Of a DNA stretch of 64,000 bases, positions 12,378 to 16,124 are shown piece after piece. The DNA is taken from NCBI GenBank assembly GCA_017513125.1, contig JAFWDI010000010.1, forward strand, positions 62,001 to 126,000, read 5' to 3'. Below the pieces are notes generated by a model. That model was given only the letters and a program-made list of their open reading frames with translations. It was not told the origin of the DNA and ran no database searches. The translations under genes and the position numbers were made by a program. The first letter of the stretch is position 1. The number at the start of each line of letters is the position of its first letter. Source of the stretch: Lachnospiraceae bacterium (GTDB lineage: Bacteria > Bacillota > Clostridia > Lachnospirales > Lachnospiraceae).

Positions 12378-13169
12378 ATGGCGGAAGCGAAAGAGAAGAA
12401 ACACAGATATTTTCCCGCGAGGGTCCTGCTGATCCTGGCAGGTGTGATCGCGGCGGTACTTTTTGTGCCGCCGCTTTTTTACGGTGTCCGGGGTCTGGGC
12501 CATATCACGGGAGCGGTCATTGCCGCGGTGCTGTTCGCGGCGGGTGTCGGTTTTGACCGGCTGCGATGCGCGCTCCGGAACCTGGCCGGGACGCGGCCGG
12601 GGAAGGCCGTGATCGGCGTTATCGCGGCATTGATCCTGCTGGCGGCCGTCACGGCGGCGGCCGGAACCGTATGCATGGTGCGGGGAGCTTCGCGGGAGCC
12701 GGATCCGCAGGCGGTCCTGGTGGTGCTGGGATGCAAGGTGCGCGGAGAAACGCCCAGCATGATGCTGCGGGAGCGGCTGGAAGCGGCCCTGAACTATCTG
12801 GAAGAGCATCCCGACGCGGCCTGTGTGGTGTCCGGGGGGCGCGGCAGCGGAGAGAGCATCTCCGAGGCGGAGTGCATGTTCCGCTGGCTTACGGAGCGGG
12901 GCATCGCACCGGAACGCATTTACCGGGAAGACGCATCGACGGACACCTGGGAAAATCTGGAGTTTACGCAGCGTATCCTCGAGGATGAGGGACTGGGGAC
13001 GCGCGTGGCGCTGTGCACGAACGAGTTTCATGAATACCGTGCGGAGAAGATCGCCGGGTCGCTCGGACTGGATGCCGGCGCGGTGCCCGCGCGGACCTCG
13101 TTCTGGCTGCTTCCCGGGTACTGGGTCCGCGAACTGTACGGGTTTCTGTATGTTCTGGTCTTTAACTGA
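12378..13169 (+). CDS. DUF218 (YdcF/SanA-like) membrane protein
   Basis: 263 residues. Three hydrophobic segments (about 13-35, 39-57 and 75-97) precede a DUF218 domain from about residue 107. The domain shows VLVVLGCKVRGETPSMMLRERL, VVSGGRGSGESISEAECM, the acidic STDTWENLEF and VALCTNEFHEYRA, the order seen in YdcF, SanA and ElyC. E. coli relatives affect envelope integrity and lipid carrier use, but the biochemical activity of most members is unknown. No strong ribosome binding site is seen; tight spacing suggests coupling to the upstream gene. Confidence 0.85.
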   Translation: MAEAKEKKHRYFPARVLLILAGVIAAVLFVPPLFYGVRGLGHITGAVIAAVLFAAGVGFDRLRCALRNLAGTRPGKAVIGVIAALILLAAVTAAAGTVCMVRGASREPDPQAVLVVLGCKVRGETPSMMLRERLEAALNYLEEHPDAACVVSGGRGSGESISEAECMFRWLTERGIAPERIYREDASTDTWENLEFTQRILEDEGLGTRVALCTNEFHEYRAEKIAGSLGLDAGAVPARTSFWLLPGYWVRELYGFLYVLVFN

Positions 13170-13170
13170 G

Positions 13171-13238
13171 TGACGTCAGGAAACGTTTCGGCTTTCAAGG
13201 AAAGTTTTCTTGTTCGTGAGCATGGAACGGAATATCAT
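13171..13238 (+). promoter_or_regulatory. Promoter and palindromes upstream of the aldolase gene
   Basis: TTGTTC (13210-13215), 17 bases, TATCAT (13233-13238). Upstream lie two perfect palindromes, TGACGTCA (13171-13178) and GAAACGTTTC (13180-13189). The second slightly resembles a catabolite-response element core but does not match its flanks. Confidence 0.5.
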
Positions 13239-13264
13239 GAAAGAGGCGGCGGACAGGCCGCCGC

Positions 13265-13293
13265 GCCGCCCGGGGAGTAAAATGCCGGGCGGC
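13265..13293 (+). promoter_or_regulatory. Leader hairpin just before the aldolase ribosome binding site
   Basis: GCCGCCCGG (13265-13273) pairs with CCGGGCGGC (13285-13293) around an 11-base loop, ending two bases before GAAAGGGG. It could modulate translation or stability. Confidence 0.4.
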
Positions 13294-13306
13294 CGAAAGG
13301 GGAAAC

Positions 13307-13960
13307 ATGGAACTGTACGAGTATAAAAAGATGGTCTGCGACCGCTCGAAGGAGGCCTATGCCGAGGGTCTGCTGGAAGGCATGAACGGAAACCTCAGCG
13401 TGTTTGCGCGCGAGCACGGCTGTGTGGTCATCACGCCCTCGCAGTTTCCTTACGAGGAGTACACGCCGGAGGAGATGGTCGTCATTGACCTCGACGGAAA
13501 TCTGATCGAGGCGCCGCATAAGCCCTCGTCCGAGTGGATCATGCACACGATGGTCTATAAGGCCCGCGAGGATGTGAACGCGGTCTTTCACACGCACTCG
13601 CCCTATGCGAGCGCGTTCGCGGTCGCGCATCGGCCCATCCCGGCCATCCTGGTCGAGATGATTCCGATGCTCGGGGACTACGTCCCGCTGGCGGAGTTTT
13701 CGATGCCGGGCACCGAGGAGATGGGGCTGAACGCGTTTAAGGTCCTGGACGGTTTCGGCGGCTGCCTGCTGATGAACCACGGTGTGCTGGCCATCGGGAC
13801 GACGCTGCACGAGGCGTATCTGAGGGCCGGCTACATTGAGACTGGCGCCCGCGTCTGCGCGCTGGCCGAAAGTCTGGGCGGGGCGTTCCCGCTGACGGAA
13901 CAGCAGGCCCGCGCGGTGGCGAGCCACTACGGGATGCTGGGAACGAAAGAAGATGAATAA
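13307..13960 (+). CDS. Class II aldolase (fuculose-1-phosphate aldolase family)
   Basis: 217 residues. Zinc-dependent aldolase/adducin fold. Glu76 (SSEWIMH), His95 and His97 (FHTHSPYASA) and His158 (MNHGV) fall exactly where E. coli FucA has Glu73, His92, His94 and His155, so the metal site is intact and the enzyme should cleave a ketose 1-phosphate to DHAP plus an aldehyde. The next gene, 41 bases on, is an MtnA-like isomerase that makes such ketose 1-phosphates. The likely substrate is therefore 5-deoxyribulose 1-phosphate or 5-methylthioribulose 1-phosphate rather than fuculose 1-phosphate; this is an inference from context. Confidence 0.88.
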   Translation: MELYEYKKMVCDRSKEAYAEGLLEGMNGNLSVFAREHGCVVITPSQFPYEEYTPEEMVVIDLDGNLIEAPHKPSSEWIMHTMVYKAREDVNAVFHTHSPYASAFAVAHRPIPAILVEMIPMLGDYVPLAEFSMPGTEEMGLNAFKVLDGFGGCLLMNHGVLAIGTTLHEAYLRAGYIETGARVCALAESLGGAFPLTEQQARAVASHYGMLGTKEDE

Positions 13961-14001
13961 GGGCCGGGCGCTGCCGGCGAGTTTATAAAGAGAGGTGAAT
14001 T

Positions 14002-15069
14002 ATGGTCGACACCAGCAAATTCGATGATCTGGGCTTCCTGTTAAAACCGGAAAACGTAGCATGGTATGAGGACGGAAAGGTCCGCATCCTGGACCGCCGC
14101 ATCTACCCGGTGCGGACGGAGTTCGTGGTGTGTGAGCGCCACGAGGACGTCGCGCAGGCGATCGCGGACATGGTCACGCAGAGCGGCGGCCCCTACACCG
14201 CGGCGGCCATGGGCATGGCGCTCGCGGCGTACGAGGTGAAGGACGCTCCCGAGGCGGAGGTCCGTGAACACCTGACGAAGGCCGCGTACACGCTGTCGCA
14301 CGCGCGTCCCACGACGACCGCGAAGATGCAGGTCGTTACGGCCCGCTGCCTGGAGGCGGCGGAGAAGGCCCTCGACGAGGGCGTTCACGGCGAGGCATTG
14401 ATCGAGGTGCTCGCGCAGAAGGCGTTCGACCTGCTGGACGGCATGTACACGCAGTGCGAGTCCGCGGCGGCCCACCTTGCGAAGCACGTTCCGCAGGGCG
14501 GCACGGTCATGACGCAGTGTTTCGCGGAGGCGTACGTCGGGATGATCATCCGGCATTGCCGCCGCCTGGGCAATGAGATAAAGATGATCTGTCCGGAGAC
14601 CCGCCCGTACTTCCAGGGCGCGCGCCTGACCGCGAGCGTGGCGAGCGAGATGGGGCTGGACGTGACCCTGATCACAGACAATATGCCCGCCTACGTGCTC
14701 AGCCAGGGCATGGTCGATCTGTTCACTTCCGCGGCGGACGTCATCACGATGGACGGCTACGTCGTGAACAAGGTCGGTACGCTGCAGATCGCGATCTCCG
14801 CGAACCGCTACGGTGTGCCGTACTTCTGCACCGGCACGCCGAACAAGGGCCACCCGACGATCGATACCGTGAAGATCGAACAACGCGATCCCGAGCTCGT
14901 GACGATGGCCATGGACCTGAAGGTCACACACCCGGAGGTGAAGGGCTACTACCCGGCGTTCGACATCACGCCGCCGGAGCTCGTGGGCGCGATCGTGACG
15001 GACCGCGGGCTGTACTCGCCTTACGATCTGGAAAGCTATCCGGGTCCGCTGACGGGCGTGGGCCTGTAA
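14002..15069 (+). CDS. mtnA: MtnA-like aldose-1-phosphate isomerase (eIF2B-related fold)
   Basis: 355 residues, matching methylthioribose-1-phosphate isomerase in length and fold. Candidate catalytic residues are Cys173 (VMTQCFAEA) and Asp246 (SAADVITMDG), followed by VVNKVGTLQIAISA, comparable to Cys160 and Asp240 of the B. subtilis enzyme. The residues around them differ from classical MtnA, so a 5-deoxyribose or ribose-bisphosphate relative is possible. With the upstream class II aldolase it would form steps two and three of a DHAP shunt; no nucleosidase or pentose kinase is nearby. RBS AGAGAGG precedes the ATG. Confidence 0.82.
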   Translation: MVDTSKFDDLGFLLKPENVAWYEDGKVRILDRRIYPVRTEFVVCERHEDVAQAIADMVTQSGGPYTAAAMGMALAAYEVKDAPEAEVREHLTKAAYTLSHARPTTTAKMQVVTARCLEAAEKALDEGVHGEALIEVLAQKAFDLLDGMYTQCESAAAHLAKHVPQGGTVMTQCFAEAYVGMIIRHCRRLGNEIKMICPETRPYFQGARLTASVASEMGLDVTLITDNMPAYVLSQGMVDLFTSAADVITMDGYVVNKVGTLQIAISANRYGVPYFCTGTPNKGHPTIDTVKIEQRDPELVTMAMDLKVTHPEVKGYYPAFDITPPELVGAIVTDRGLYSPYDLESYPGPLTGVGL

Positions 15070-15164
15070 CGGGAGGCCGCCACCTGAGCGCGCCTCTGCA
15101 TGCGGCAGGGCAGCGACTCAAGGTGCGACCGGGAAGGTGCGGCCGGGAAGATCGAACCGAAAAA

Positions 15165-15227
15165 CATAACAGATATGACGGGGGAAAACGTGATCTCCGA
15201 ATCACGATGCCCCCGTCATTTGTTATG
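15165..15227 (+). terminator. Compound hairpin after the mtnA-like gene
   Basis: Nested inverted repeats: CATAACA/TGTTATG outside, ATGACGGGGG/CCCCCGTCAT in the middle, CGTGAT/ATCACG (15189-15194, 15201-15206) at the tip. Flanking U-richness is better on the minus strand (TTATGTTTTT) than on the plus strand. The rest of the 360-base gap up to 15429 holds the promoter of the two-component genes and no plausible gene. Confidence 0.6.
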
Positions 15228-15287
15228 GTTTGAGGTTCAGATATGACGTGAGCGGTGAGCTTTTCCGCCCCGCCGCATCCAAGGTGC

Positions 15288-15315
15288 TTGAGCCTTTCCG
15301 CGCGCCTGCTACAAT
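15288..15315 (+). promoter_or_regulatory. Promoter of the two-component operon
   Basis: TTGAGC (15288-15293), 16 bases, TACAAT (15310-15315) with a TGC extension directly before the -10. Confidence 0.6.
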
Positions 15316-15428
15316 AGAACTGCCGTGTTTGCTAACTTCACGGATACAACTTCATCAAATCTTAAACAGTGCCCCCCTTTTTTCTTAAAGGCGGTCTGCC
15401 CTACACTTTCTTCAGGAGGAGAGAGACC

Positions 15429-16124
15429 ATGGCCAACATTCTGATCTGTGACGACGACAGAGACATCGTGAGCGCGCTCGCGATCTATCTCTCGGACCCG
15501 GACTACACACTGTTCCGTGCGTACAACGGCCGCGAGGCGGTCGAGATCTGCGCCCGGGAGGAGATCCATCTGGTGCTTCTCGACATCATGATGCCGGTCA
15601 TGGACGGAATCACGGCCCTCGCGAAGATCCGCGAGACTTCGAACGTTCCGGTGATCCTGCTCACCGCGAAGAGCGAGGACACGGACAAGATCCTGGGCCT
15701 GAACGTCGGCGCGGACGATTACATCACGAAGCCGTTCAACCCGCTCGAGGTCACCGCCCGCGTCCGCTCGCAGCTGCGGCGCTTCCTGAAGCTGGGCGGC
15801 GGCGTGGTGCGGCCGGAGGCCTTCGCGATCGGCGGCATCGAGCTGAACGACCGCACGAAGGAAGTCACGGTCGACGGCGACCCGGTCTCCCTCACTCCGA
15901 AGGAGTACGAGATCCTGAAGCTTCTCATGGCGGACCCCGACCGGGTGTTCTCGCCGAAGGAGATCTACGAGCAGGTCTGGAAAGAGAAGCCTCTGGGATC
16001 GGAGAACACGGTGGCGGTGCACATCCGCCATCTTAGGGAGAAGATCGAGATCGACCCGGCCGACCCTCGTTACGTGAAGGTGATCTTCGGCCAGGGATAT
16101 AAGATCGGGAAGGGGCGCGAGTGA
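15429..16124 (+). CDS. OmpR/PhoB-family response regulator
   Basis: 231 residues. Receiver domain with the acidic pocket CDDDRD, phospho-acceptor Asp52 (VLLDIMMP) and the conserved Lys in DYITKPF, then a winged-helix DNA-binding domain with SLTPKEYEIL, ENTVAVHIRHLREKIE and VIFGQGYKIG. It should control transcription when phosphorylated by the kinase encoded directly downstream. The ATG at 15429 follows AGGAGGA; the frame is open further upstream but without homology. Stop overlaps the start of the kinase gene. Domain make-up resembles VanR-type regulators, but the stimulus is unknown. Confidence 0.95.
   Translation: MANILICDDDRDIVSALAIYLSDPDYTLFRAYNGREAVEICAREEIHLVLLDIMMPVMDGITALAKIRETSNVPVILLTAKSEDTDKILGLNVGADDYITKPFNPLEVTARVRSQLRRFLKLGGGVVRPEAFAIGGIELNDRTKEVTVDGDPVSLTPKEYEILKLLMADPDRVFSPKEIYEQVWKEKPLGSENTVAVHIRHLREKIEIDPADPRYVKVIFGQGYKIGKGRE

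Follow-up and report, generated by a model that had tools for sequence, protein, structure and literature searches.

A FucA-type aldolase and a variant MtnA-fold isomerase as a probable 5-deoxyribose disposal pair in a Lachnospiraceae bacterium

The aldolase–isomerase locus

The window analysed here, a stretch of 64,000 nucleotides from a Lachnospiraceae bacterium, contains two neighbouring open reading frames on the + strand, which were recovered at the coordinates given in a preliminary description of this DNA. The upstream gene, A (13307–13960, + strand), encodes a class II aldolase of the FucA/AraD superfamily with 217 amino acids (Pfam Aldolase_II, PF00596, 162 bits), and the downstream gene, I (14002–15069, + strand), encodes an isomerase of 355 amino acids with the MtnA fold (Pfam IF-2B, 157 bits). 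The 41 bases between them (13961–14001, + strand) include GAGAGGTGA ahead of the ATG of I, which on inspection resembles a ribosome-binding site.

The neighbouring genes do not suggest a sugar pathway: flavin reductase-like and DUF218 genes lie upstream of A, and a response regulator and a histidine kinase lie downstream of I. Profile scanning over about 8.5 kb on either side of the pair detected no gene resembling those for MtnK, purine nucleoside phosphorylase (PNP) or uridine phosphorylase. A promoter and terminator scan of positions 12950–15500 found no + strand site 5' of A and one promoter-like site past I (15288–15315; 0.5 expected by chance). The search for regulatory RNAs between 11000 and 16500 returned two sub-threshold matches only, so a riboswitch reading was dropped.

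The isomerase and its clade

Isomerase I scores 318.7 bits against the broad NCBIfam model PRK05720 (cut-off 271) and 188.1 bits against the MtnA model TIGR00512, 91 bits below the equivalog cut-off of 279. It also stays below the cut-off of the ribose-1,5-bisphosphate isomerase model TIGR00511 (146.9 against 314.1 bits) and reaches only 65 and 35 bits against eIF2B-type models. A PDB search with I ranked MtnA-type chains first, and I includes the N-terminal part of MtnA. The AlphaFold model of I (pLDDT 85.7, with residues 300–318 poorly modelled) matches MtnA-type structures best (TM 0.73–0.78 by query length), followed by ribose-1,5-bisphosphate isomerases (0.54–0.68). A reading of I as an eIF2B-like translation factor, the grouping that the preliminary description had named as its refuting case, is rejected on these family scores and fold matches, the solved relatives being of the MtnA type.

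By its position in a FastTree phylogeny of 153 sequences, I is a member of a clade apart from MtnA proper. This clade holds 110 distinct members and the fragmentary relative L134 (local support 0.999) and is separate from the MtnA clade of 41 sequences (local support 0.896), which includes four PDB chains, the MtnA of the E. coli record L184 and the copy on contig C2 of the genome of the window itself. Ribose-1,5-bisphosphate isomerase was chosen as the root, so the tree is silent on whether I groups with that enzyme. In genome samples, clade members scored at least 269 bits against the window protein, and MtnA-type matches 150 bits or below. Including the genome of the window, the clade occurs in 9 of 196 sampled genomes of the order and 17 of 393 of the class, and this genome is the sole carrier among 22 sampled from its family. 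When genomes of named species were searched with clade patterns, at least 550 of at least 591 matching stretches (matches, not distinct loci) encoded a relative; the 80 loci of named species used below are the best among the matches listed rather than a random draw.

The catalytic residues expected from homology, Cys173 (14518–14520, + strand) and Asp246 (14737–14739, + strand), are present as had been described, and are kept in 110/111 and 111/111 clade rows, respectively. The Arg and Thr of the ARPT motif and the QG and NK motifs are likewise common to the clade and MtnA, each being kept in 111/111 clade rows. The MtnA proteins of B. subtilis (2yvk) and T. maritima (1t9k) share these residues and the fold (TM about 0.77) with I, but are about 30% identical to it and differ at several positions that are fixed or nearly fixed on both sides. 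The RGAP motif found in 41/41 MtnA sequences is replaced by Q-S-x-G-P in all 110 clade rows with letters there (Q60, S61, G63 and P64 each 110/110; Q60-S-G-G-P64 in I, 14179–14193, + strand). The loop carrying the catalytic cysteine is seven residues shorter in the clade, and the N-A-G that follows the cysteine in MtnA (41, 40 and 41 of 41) becomes F/W/Y, then A/G, then E (109/111) or D, in agreement with the earlier remark that the surroundings of Cys173 are unlike those of classical MtnA. The Arg after the catalytic Asp in MtnA (GADR, 41/41) is replaced by V, A, S or T in 107/111 clade rows (Val247 in I), and the Asn before PAFD (41/41 in MtnA) by Tyr in 111/111. As judged from the alignment, the pocket of the clade is remodelled relative to MtnA by fixed changes, despite which family models call these proteins MtnA. 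Because the predicted pocket differs at fixed positions from that of MtnA, including the E. coli L184 protein, the substrate of I could differ as well.

The aldolase and its active site

Glu76 of A (13532–13534, + strand; equivalent to DrdA Glu76 by alignment), the metal ligands His95 and His97 (His95-x-His97, 13589–13597, + strand) and the third metal ligand His158 (13778–13780, + strand) are each invariant in 76/76 aligned aldolase rows. Among the 25 listed of the 31 NCBIfam families matched by A, none scored over its cut-off. In E. coli FucA, Glu73, the base, and Tyr113' are catalytic, and the part of the literature consulted describes Tyr113' as essential (PMC11841055). The corresponding position in A is Val116, followed by Glu117 (13655–13657, + strand); the earlier claim that A has all FucA metal and catalytic residues thus stands for Glu76, His95, His97 and His158 and fails at the tyrosine.

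This replacement is a group property. Tyrosine occupies the position in 22/22 DrdA-like rows, DrdA among them, whereas the rows of the group of A have Ile or Val there and, at the next position, a Glu conserved in 41/41. The remaining 13 of the 76 rows belong to neither group; the aldolases of L184 and L134 are among these, and both have the tyrosine. The branch formed by the 41 Glu-type rows has only 80% support in the aldolase tree, where A itself is a long end branch with a best identity of 52%. Glu117 aligns with a Glu of the RhuA-like aldolase of the same genome, which we take to be catalytic, as does the corresponding Glu of the aldolase on contig C2 (a small alignment with one profile match, judged by eye). 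The invariant Glu117 may be a stand-in for FucA Tyr113.

Aldolases of both groups adjoin clade isomerases, with kinase and with phosphorylase neighbours. The C2 aldolase clusters in the tree with four aldolases from MtnA loci. The proposal of one aldolase kind per isomerase type was dropped, the aldolases of the MtnA loci L017 and L021 being on the DrdA side.

Other pathway genes in the same genome

The genome of the window (2.23 Mb in 36 contigs, 87% complete) holds two IF-2B-family genes, three class II aldolases and two PF01048 (nucleosidase/phosphorylase) genes, both of the latter away from the window contig. A genome search for MtnK and MtnN, suggested in the preliminary description, found both over curated cut-offs together with a canonical MtnA. 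On contig C2, genes for MtnK (384 bits, cut-off 275), canonical MtnA (TIGR00512, 426 bits, cut-off 279), a ribokinase-like protein and a class II aldolase follow one another, and this locus is likely a complete DHAP shunt. Transporter-like genes precede the C2 cluster (8124–12.3k; L001, L003 and L046). On contig C26, MtnN adjoins a DeoD-type phosphorylase, each over its cut-off, and the third class II aldolase, on C23, resembles rhamnulose-1-phosphate aldolase.

As MtnK, MtnN and canonical MtnA are encoded elsewhere in the genome, the window pair constitutes a second, kinase-less set. The first steps had been described as missing locally, which holds for the roughly 8.5 kb around the pair, but the accompanying word "partial" is misleading: rather than a broken pathway, the window holds a duplicate pair made up of variant enzymes.

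Neighbourhoods of the clade isomerase in relatives

Neighbouring genes were clustered and searched with profile HMMs over 112 loci, 110 of which contain a clade isomerase, with the genes of relatives called by conservation scoring. Two loci repeat a genome (L165 = L089 and L166 = L128, with contigs of equal length and identical isomerases). An aldolase gene is directly adjacent to the isomerase gene on the same strand in 37/110 loci, upstream as in the window in 25 and downstream in 12; without the two repeated genomes the count is 36/108. Neighbours within about 8.5 kb were counted at the 73 distinct loci that are flanked by 5 kb or more of sequence on each side. An aldolase is present in 49/73 of these loci and an MtnK-like kinase or nucleoside phosphorylase in 56/73, which backs the earlier reading of the pair as the last two steps of a DHAP shunt. 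Taken separately, PNP occurs in 28/73, an MtnK-like kinase in 27/73, a deaminase in 16/73, a BmpA-type (Bmp/PnrA) importer in 13/73, a uridine phosphorylase-like gene in 9/73 and a cytidine deaminase-family gene in 6/73; with repeats counted in, a DeoR-type regulator occurs in 28/75 and an iron alcohol dehydrogenase in 27/75.

Each cluster was named from one representative, or two for MtnK. The kinases of L039 and L130 score over the MtnK cut-off; the uridine phosphorylase-like representative reaches 259.5 against a cut-off of 280.3, and the deaminase representative resembles 5'-deoxyadenosine/MTA deaminases, below their NCBIfam cut-offs. An annotated plasmid cluster of L. intestinalis comprises mtnK, the isomerase gene and L-fuculose-phosphate aldolase. 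Aldolase–isomerase pairs without a nearby kinase or phosphorylase, as in the window, recur in L099, L105, L170 and L175, and 29 of 108 clade rows have no kinase, phosphorylase or deaminase nearby, partly owing to contig ends. Kinase-linked and phosphorylase-linked isomerases were alike at those active-site columns that were compared, and the columns at which they differ most (for example position 283) lie outside these; the lack of an active-site difference by context suits one substrate with two entries.

Several loci stand out for other reasons. The clade isomerase adjoins one or two AMP-binding acyl-CoA synthetase-like genes in L076, L081, L090 and L104 (also L121 and L127), and none of the profiled aldolase, kinase and phosphorylase genes was found near it there. 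The MtnK–isomerase clusters of L049–L052 and L059 run into thiolase-like and pyridine nucleotide-disulphide oxidoreductase genes, with a ChsH2-type zinc-ribbon/OB-fold gene in 4/5 of these loci, which is odd for sugar salvage. In L093, a clade-type isomerase lies about 6.4 kb from one of the MtnA type, and L051 has an aldolase flanked by two MtnK-like genes. L184 (NZ_CP141089.1) is a 4.9 Mb E. coli record filed as a plasmid, and carries MtnK-like, MtnA and aldolase genes.

Proposed function and alternatives

The pair most likely converts 5-deoxyribose 1-phosphate, and perhaps methylthioribose 1-phosphate, to DHAP and an aldehyde, a reading to which we give a probability of roughly 0.6. I would form the 1-phospho-ketose from 5-deoxyribose 1-phosphate, and perhaps from methylthioribose 1-phosphate too, by Cys173/Asp246 chemistry as in MtnA, and A would split this ketose with a divalent metal bound at Glu76, His95, His97 and His158, yielding dihydroxyacetone phosphate and acetaldehyde (or methylthioacetaldehyde). 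The substrate would be supplied in trans by the nucleosidase MtnN and the kinase MtnK, with the pair acting as the kinase-less set alongside the canonical MtnK–MtnA–aldolase locus. We infer these substrates, the direction of the reactions, the coupling to MtnK and the role of Glu117 from the families, residue changes, genome content and neighbourhoods described above. The pathway guess of the preliminary description is probably right in kind.

The pathway is known, and it is the enzyme variants that are new. A kinase–isomerase–aldolase cluster of B. thuringiensis (DrdK/DrdI/DrdA) converts 5-deoxyribose to DHAP and acetaldehyde, and the consulted parts of the same report also name C. botulinum and, with a phosphorylase, C. 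phytofermentans (Beaudoin 2018, PMC6079011). The window pair resembles this system in that an MtnA-superfamily isomerase lies beside a FucA-type aldolase, that the genome also encodes a canonical MtnA paralogous to the isomerase, and that many relatives of I have an MtnK-like kinase, with entry by kinase or phosphorylase. It differs in that the window locus has no kinase, and in that DrdA has the tyrosine where A has Val116-Glu117. A DrdA query against 395 genomes of another class matched three at E ≤ 1e-40, at most 60% identical, and DrdI is thus absent from the isomerase tree. The DHAP shunt of extraintestinal E. coli (MtnK–MtnA–Ald2) has the same predicted reactions; if L184 is taken to represent it, its MtnA differs from I in falling within the MtnA clade, with RGAP and a long Cys loop, and its aldolase has the tyrosine. 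As in that shunt and in 5-deoxyribose disposal, isomerase and FucA-type aldolase genes are clustered in the window, but here no kinase or phosphorylase gene is clustered with them. Kinase and phosphorylase are both known entries, to 5-deoxyribose disposal (PMC6079011) and to the DHAP shunt (PMC10986504), as far as the consulted parts of these sources go. The deaminases of relatives resemble 5'-deoxyadenosine deaminase, which together with PNP is a known type of entry to 5-deoxyribose disposal. Counting against this function are the lack of deoB in 27/36 phosphorylase-context genomes, the lack of Tyr113' in A and the lack of a kinase at the window locus, and the uridine phosphorylase-like (9/73) and cytidine deaminase (6/73) genes of relatives are unexplained by 5-deoxynucleoside salvage.

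These nucleoside genes, together with the PNP (28 of the 73 loci) and the Bmp/PnrA-type importers (13), would fit a different substrate: the isomerases of the clade would act on ribose 1-phosphate, I would form ribulose 1-phosphate and A would cleave it to DHAP and glycolaldehyde, replacing the phosphopentomutase DeoB; we regard this as unlikely. Among 75 entries, with repeats removed and eight with both or neither entry gene set aside, deoB scored over its cut-off in 9/36 phosphorylase-context and 22/29 kinase-context genomes (Fisher 6e-5, kinship ignored), a test that covered 50 of the 80 named loci, in genomes of unstated completeness. It was likewise found in 8/25 isomerase-bearing and 35/55 isomerase-free genomes (p 0.015), the latter hand-picked and mostly of the same families. 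However, tree-aware pairing of 63 of the 65 rows (two were lost with the repeats) left only six supported independent pairs with a median p of 0.5, although on average the association pointed the way this reading predicts (2.0 vs 0.3). Moreover, deoB was present in 5/10 loci with uridine phosphorylase or cytidine deaminase and 4/26 other phosphorylase loci, the opposite of the prediction. The genome of the window has a DeoD phosphorylase and no detected deoB, which is weak evidence because the assembly is 87% complete. In favour of ribose 1-phosphate, the short Cys loop is like that of ribose-1,5-bisphosphate isomerase, and haloarchaeal nucleoside breakdown, in the non-carboxylating pentose bisphosphate pathway, likewise ends in a FucA-type ribulose-1-phosphate aldolase giving DHAP and an aldehyde; according to the consulted part of that source it proceeds via ribose 1,5-bisphosphate and a phosphatase (PMC9700705), whereas a direct 1-phosphate isomerase is proposed here. 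Against ribose 1-phosphate also speak the likeness of kinase- and phosphorylase-linked isomerases at the active-site columns examined and the report, in the part consulted, that the MtnK-like DrdK is inactive on ribose (PMC6079011). As the deoB link is weak once relatedness is taken into account and no active-site column examined separates the two contexts, 5-deoxyribose 1-phosphate is kept as the main substrate. A bacterial route from nucleosides to glycolysis through the clade isomerase and the Glu-type aldolase, bypassing DeoB and the pentose phosphate pathway in parallel to the canonical shunt of the same genome, is quite doubtful, although clade isomerases adjoin nucleoside phosphorylases in many genomes of anaerobes with no phosphopentomutase detected. 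A literature search covering few subscription papers found the haloarchaeal pathway and recognised no bacterial ribose 1-phosphate isomerase route, which may have been published.

Plain redundancy with MtnA, in which I would act on methylthioribose 1-phosphate and A on methylthioribulose 1-phosphate for sulfur or carbon salvage, would suit the PRK05720 score, the presence of MtnN and MtnK in the genome and the E. coli DHAP shunt, which in the consulted part of its description takes sugars derived from both MTA and 5'-deoxyadenosine (PMC10986504). It is improbable given that a canonical MtnA already accompanies MtnK in this genome, and that I misses TIGR00512 and forms its own clade with fixed pocket changes. 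That I is a ribose-1,5-bisphosphate isomerase or an eIF2B-like regulatory protein is most improbable: the fold is shared and the Cys loop is as short as that of the T. kodakarensis ribose-1,5-bisphosphate isomerase, but the TIGR00511 and eIF2B scores, the MtnA-type N-terminal part and the ranking of PDB chains all argue against it.

Implications

5-Deoxyribose stems from 5'-deoxyadenosine, which the consulted part of the source describes as a toxic by-product of radical SAM enzymes (PMC6079011). The aldolases with Glu in place of Tyr lend themselves naturally to testing how class II aldolases cope without a residue that is described as essential in FucA. Once known, the substrate of the isomerase clade would allow the annotation to be put right in many genomes and would tell whether the ribose of nucleosides also goes this way.
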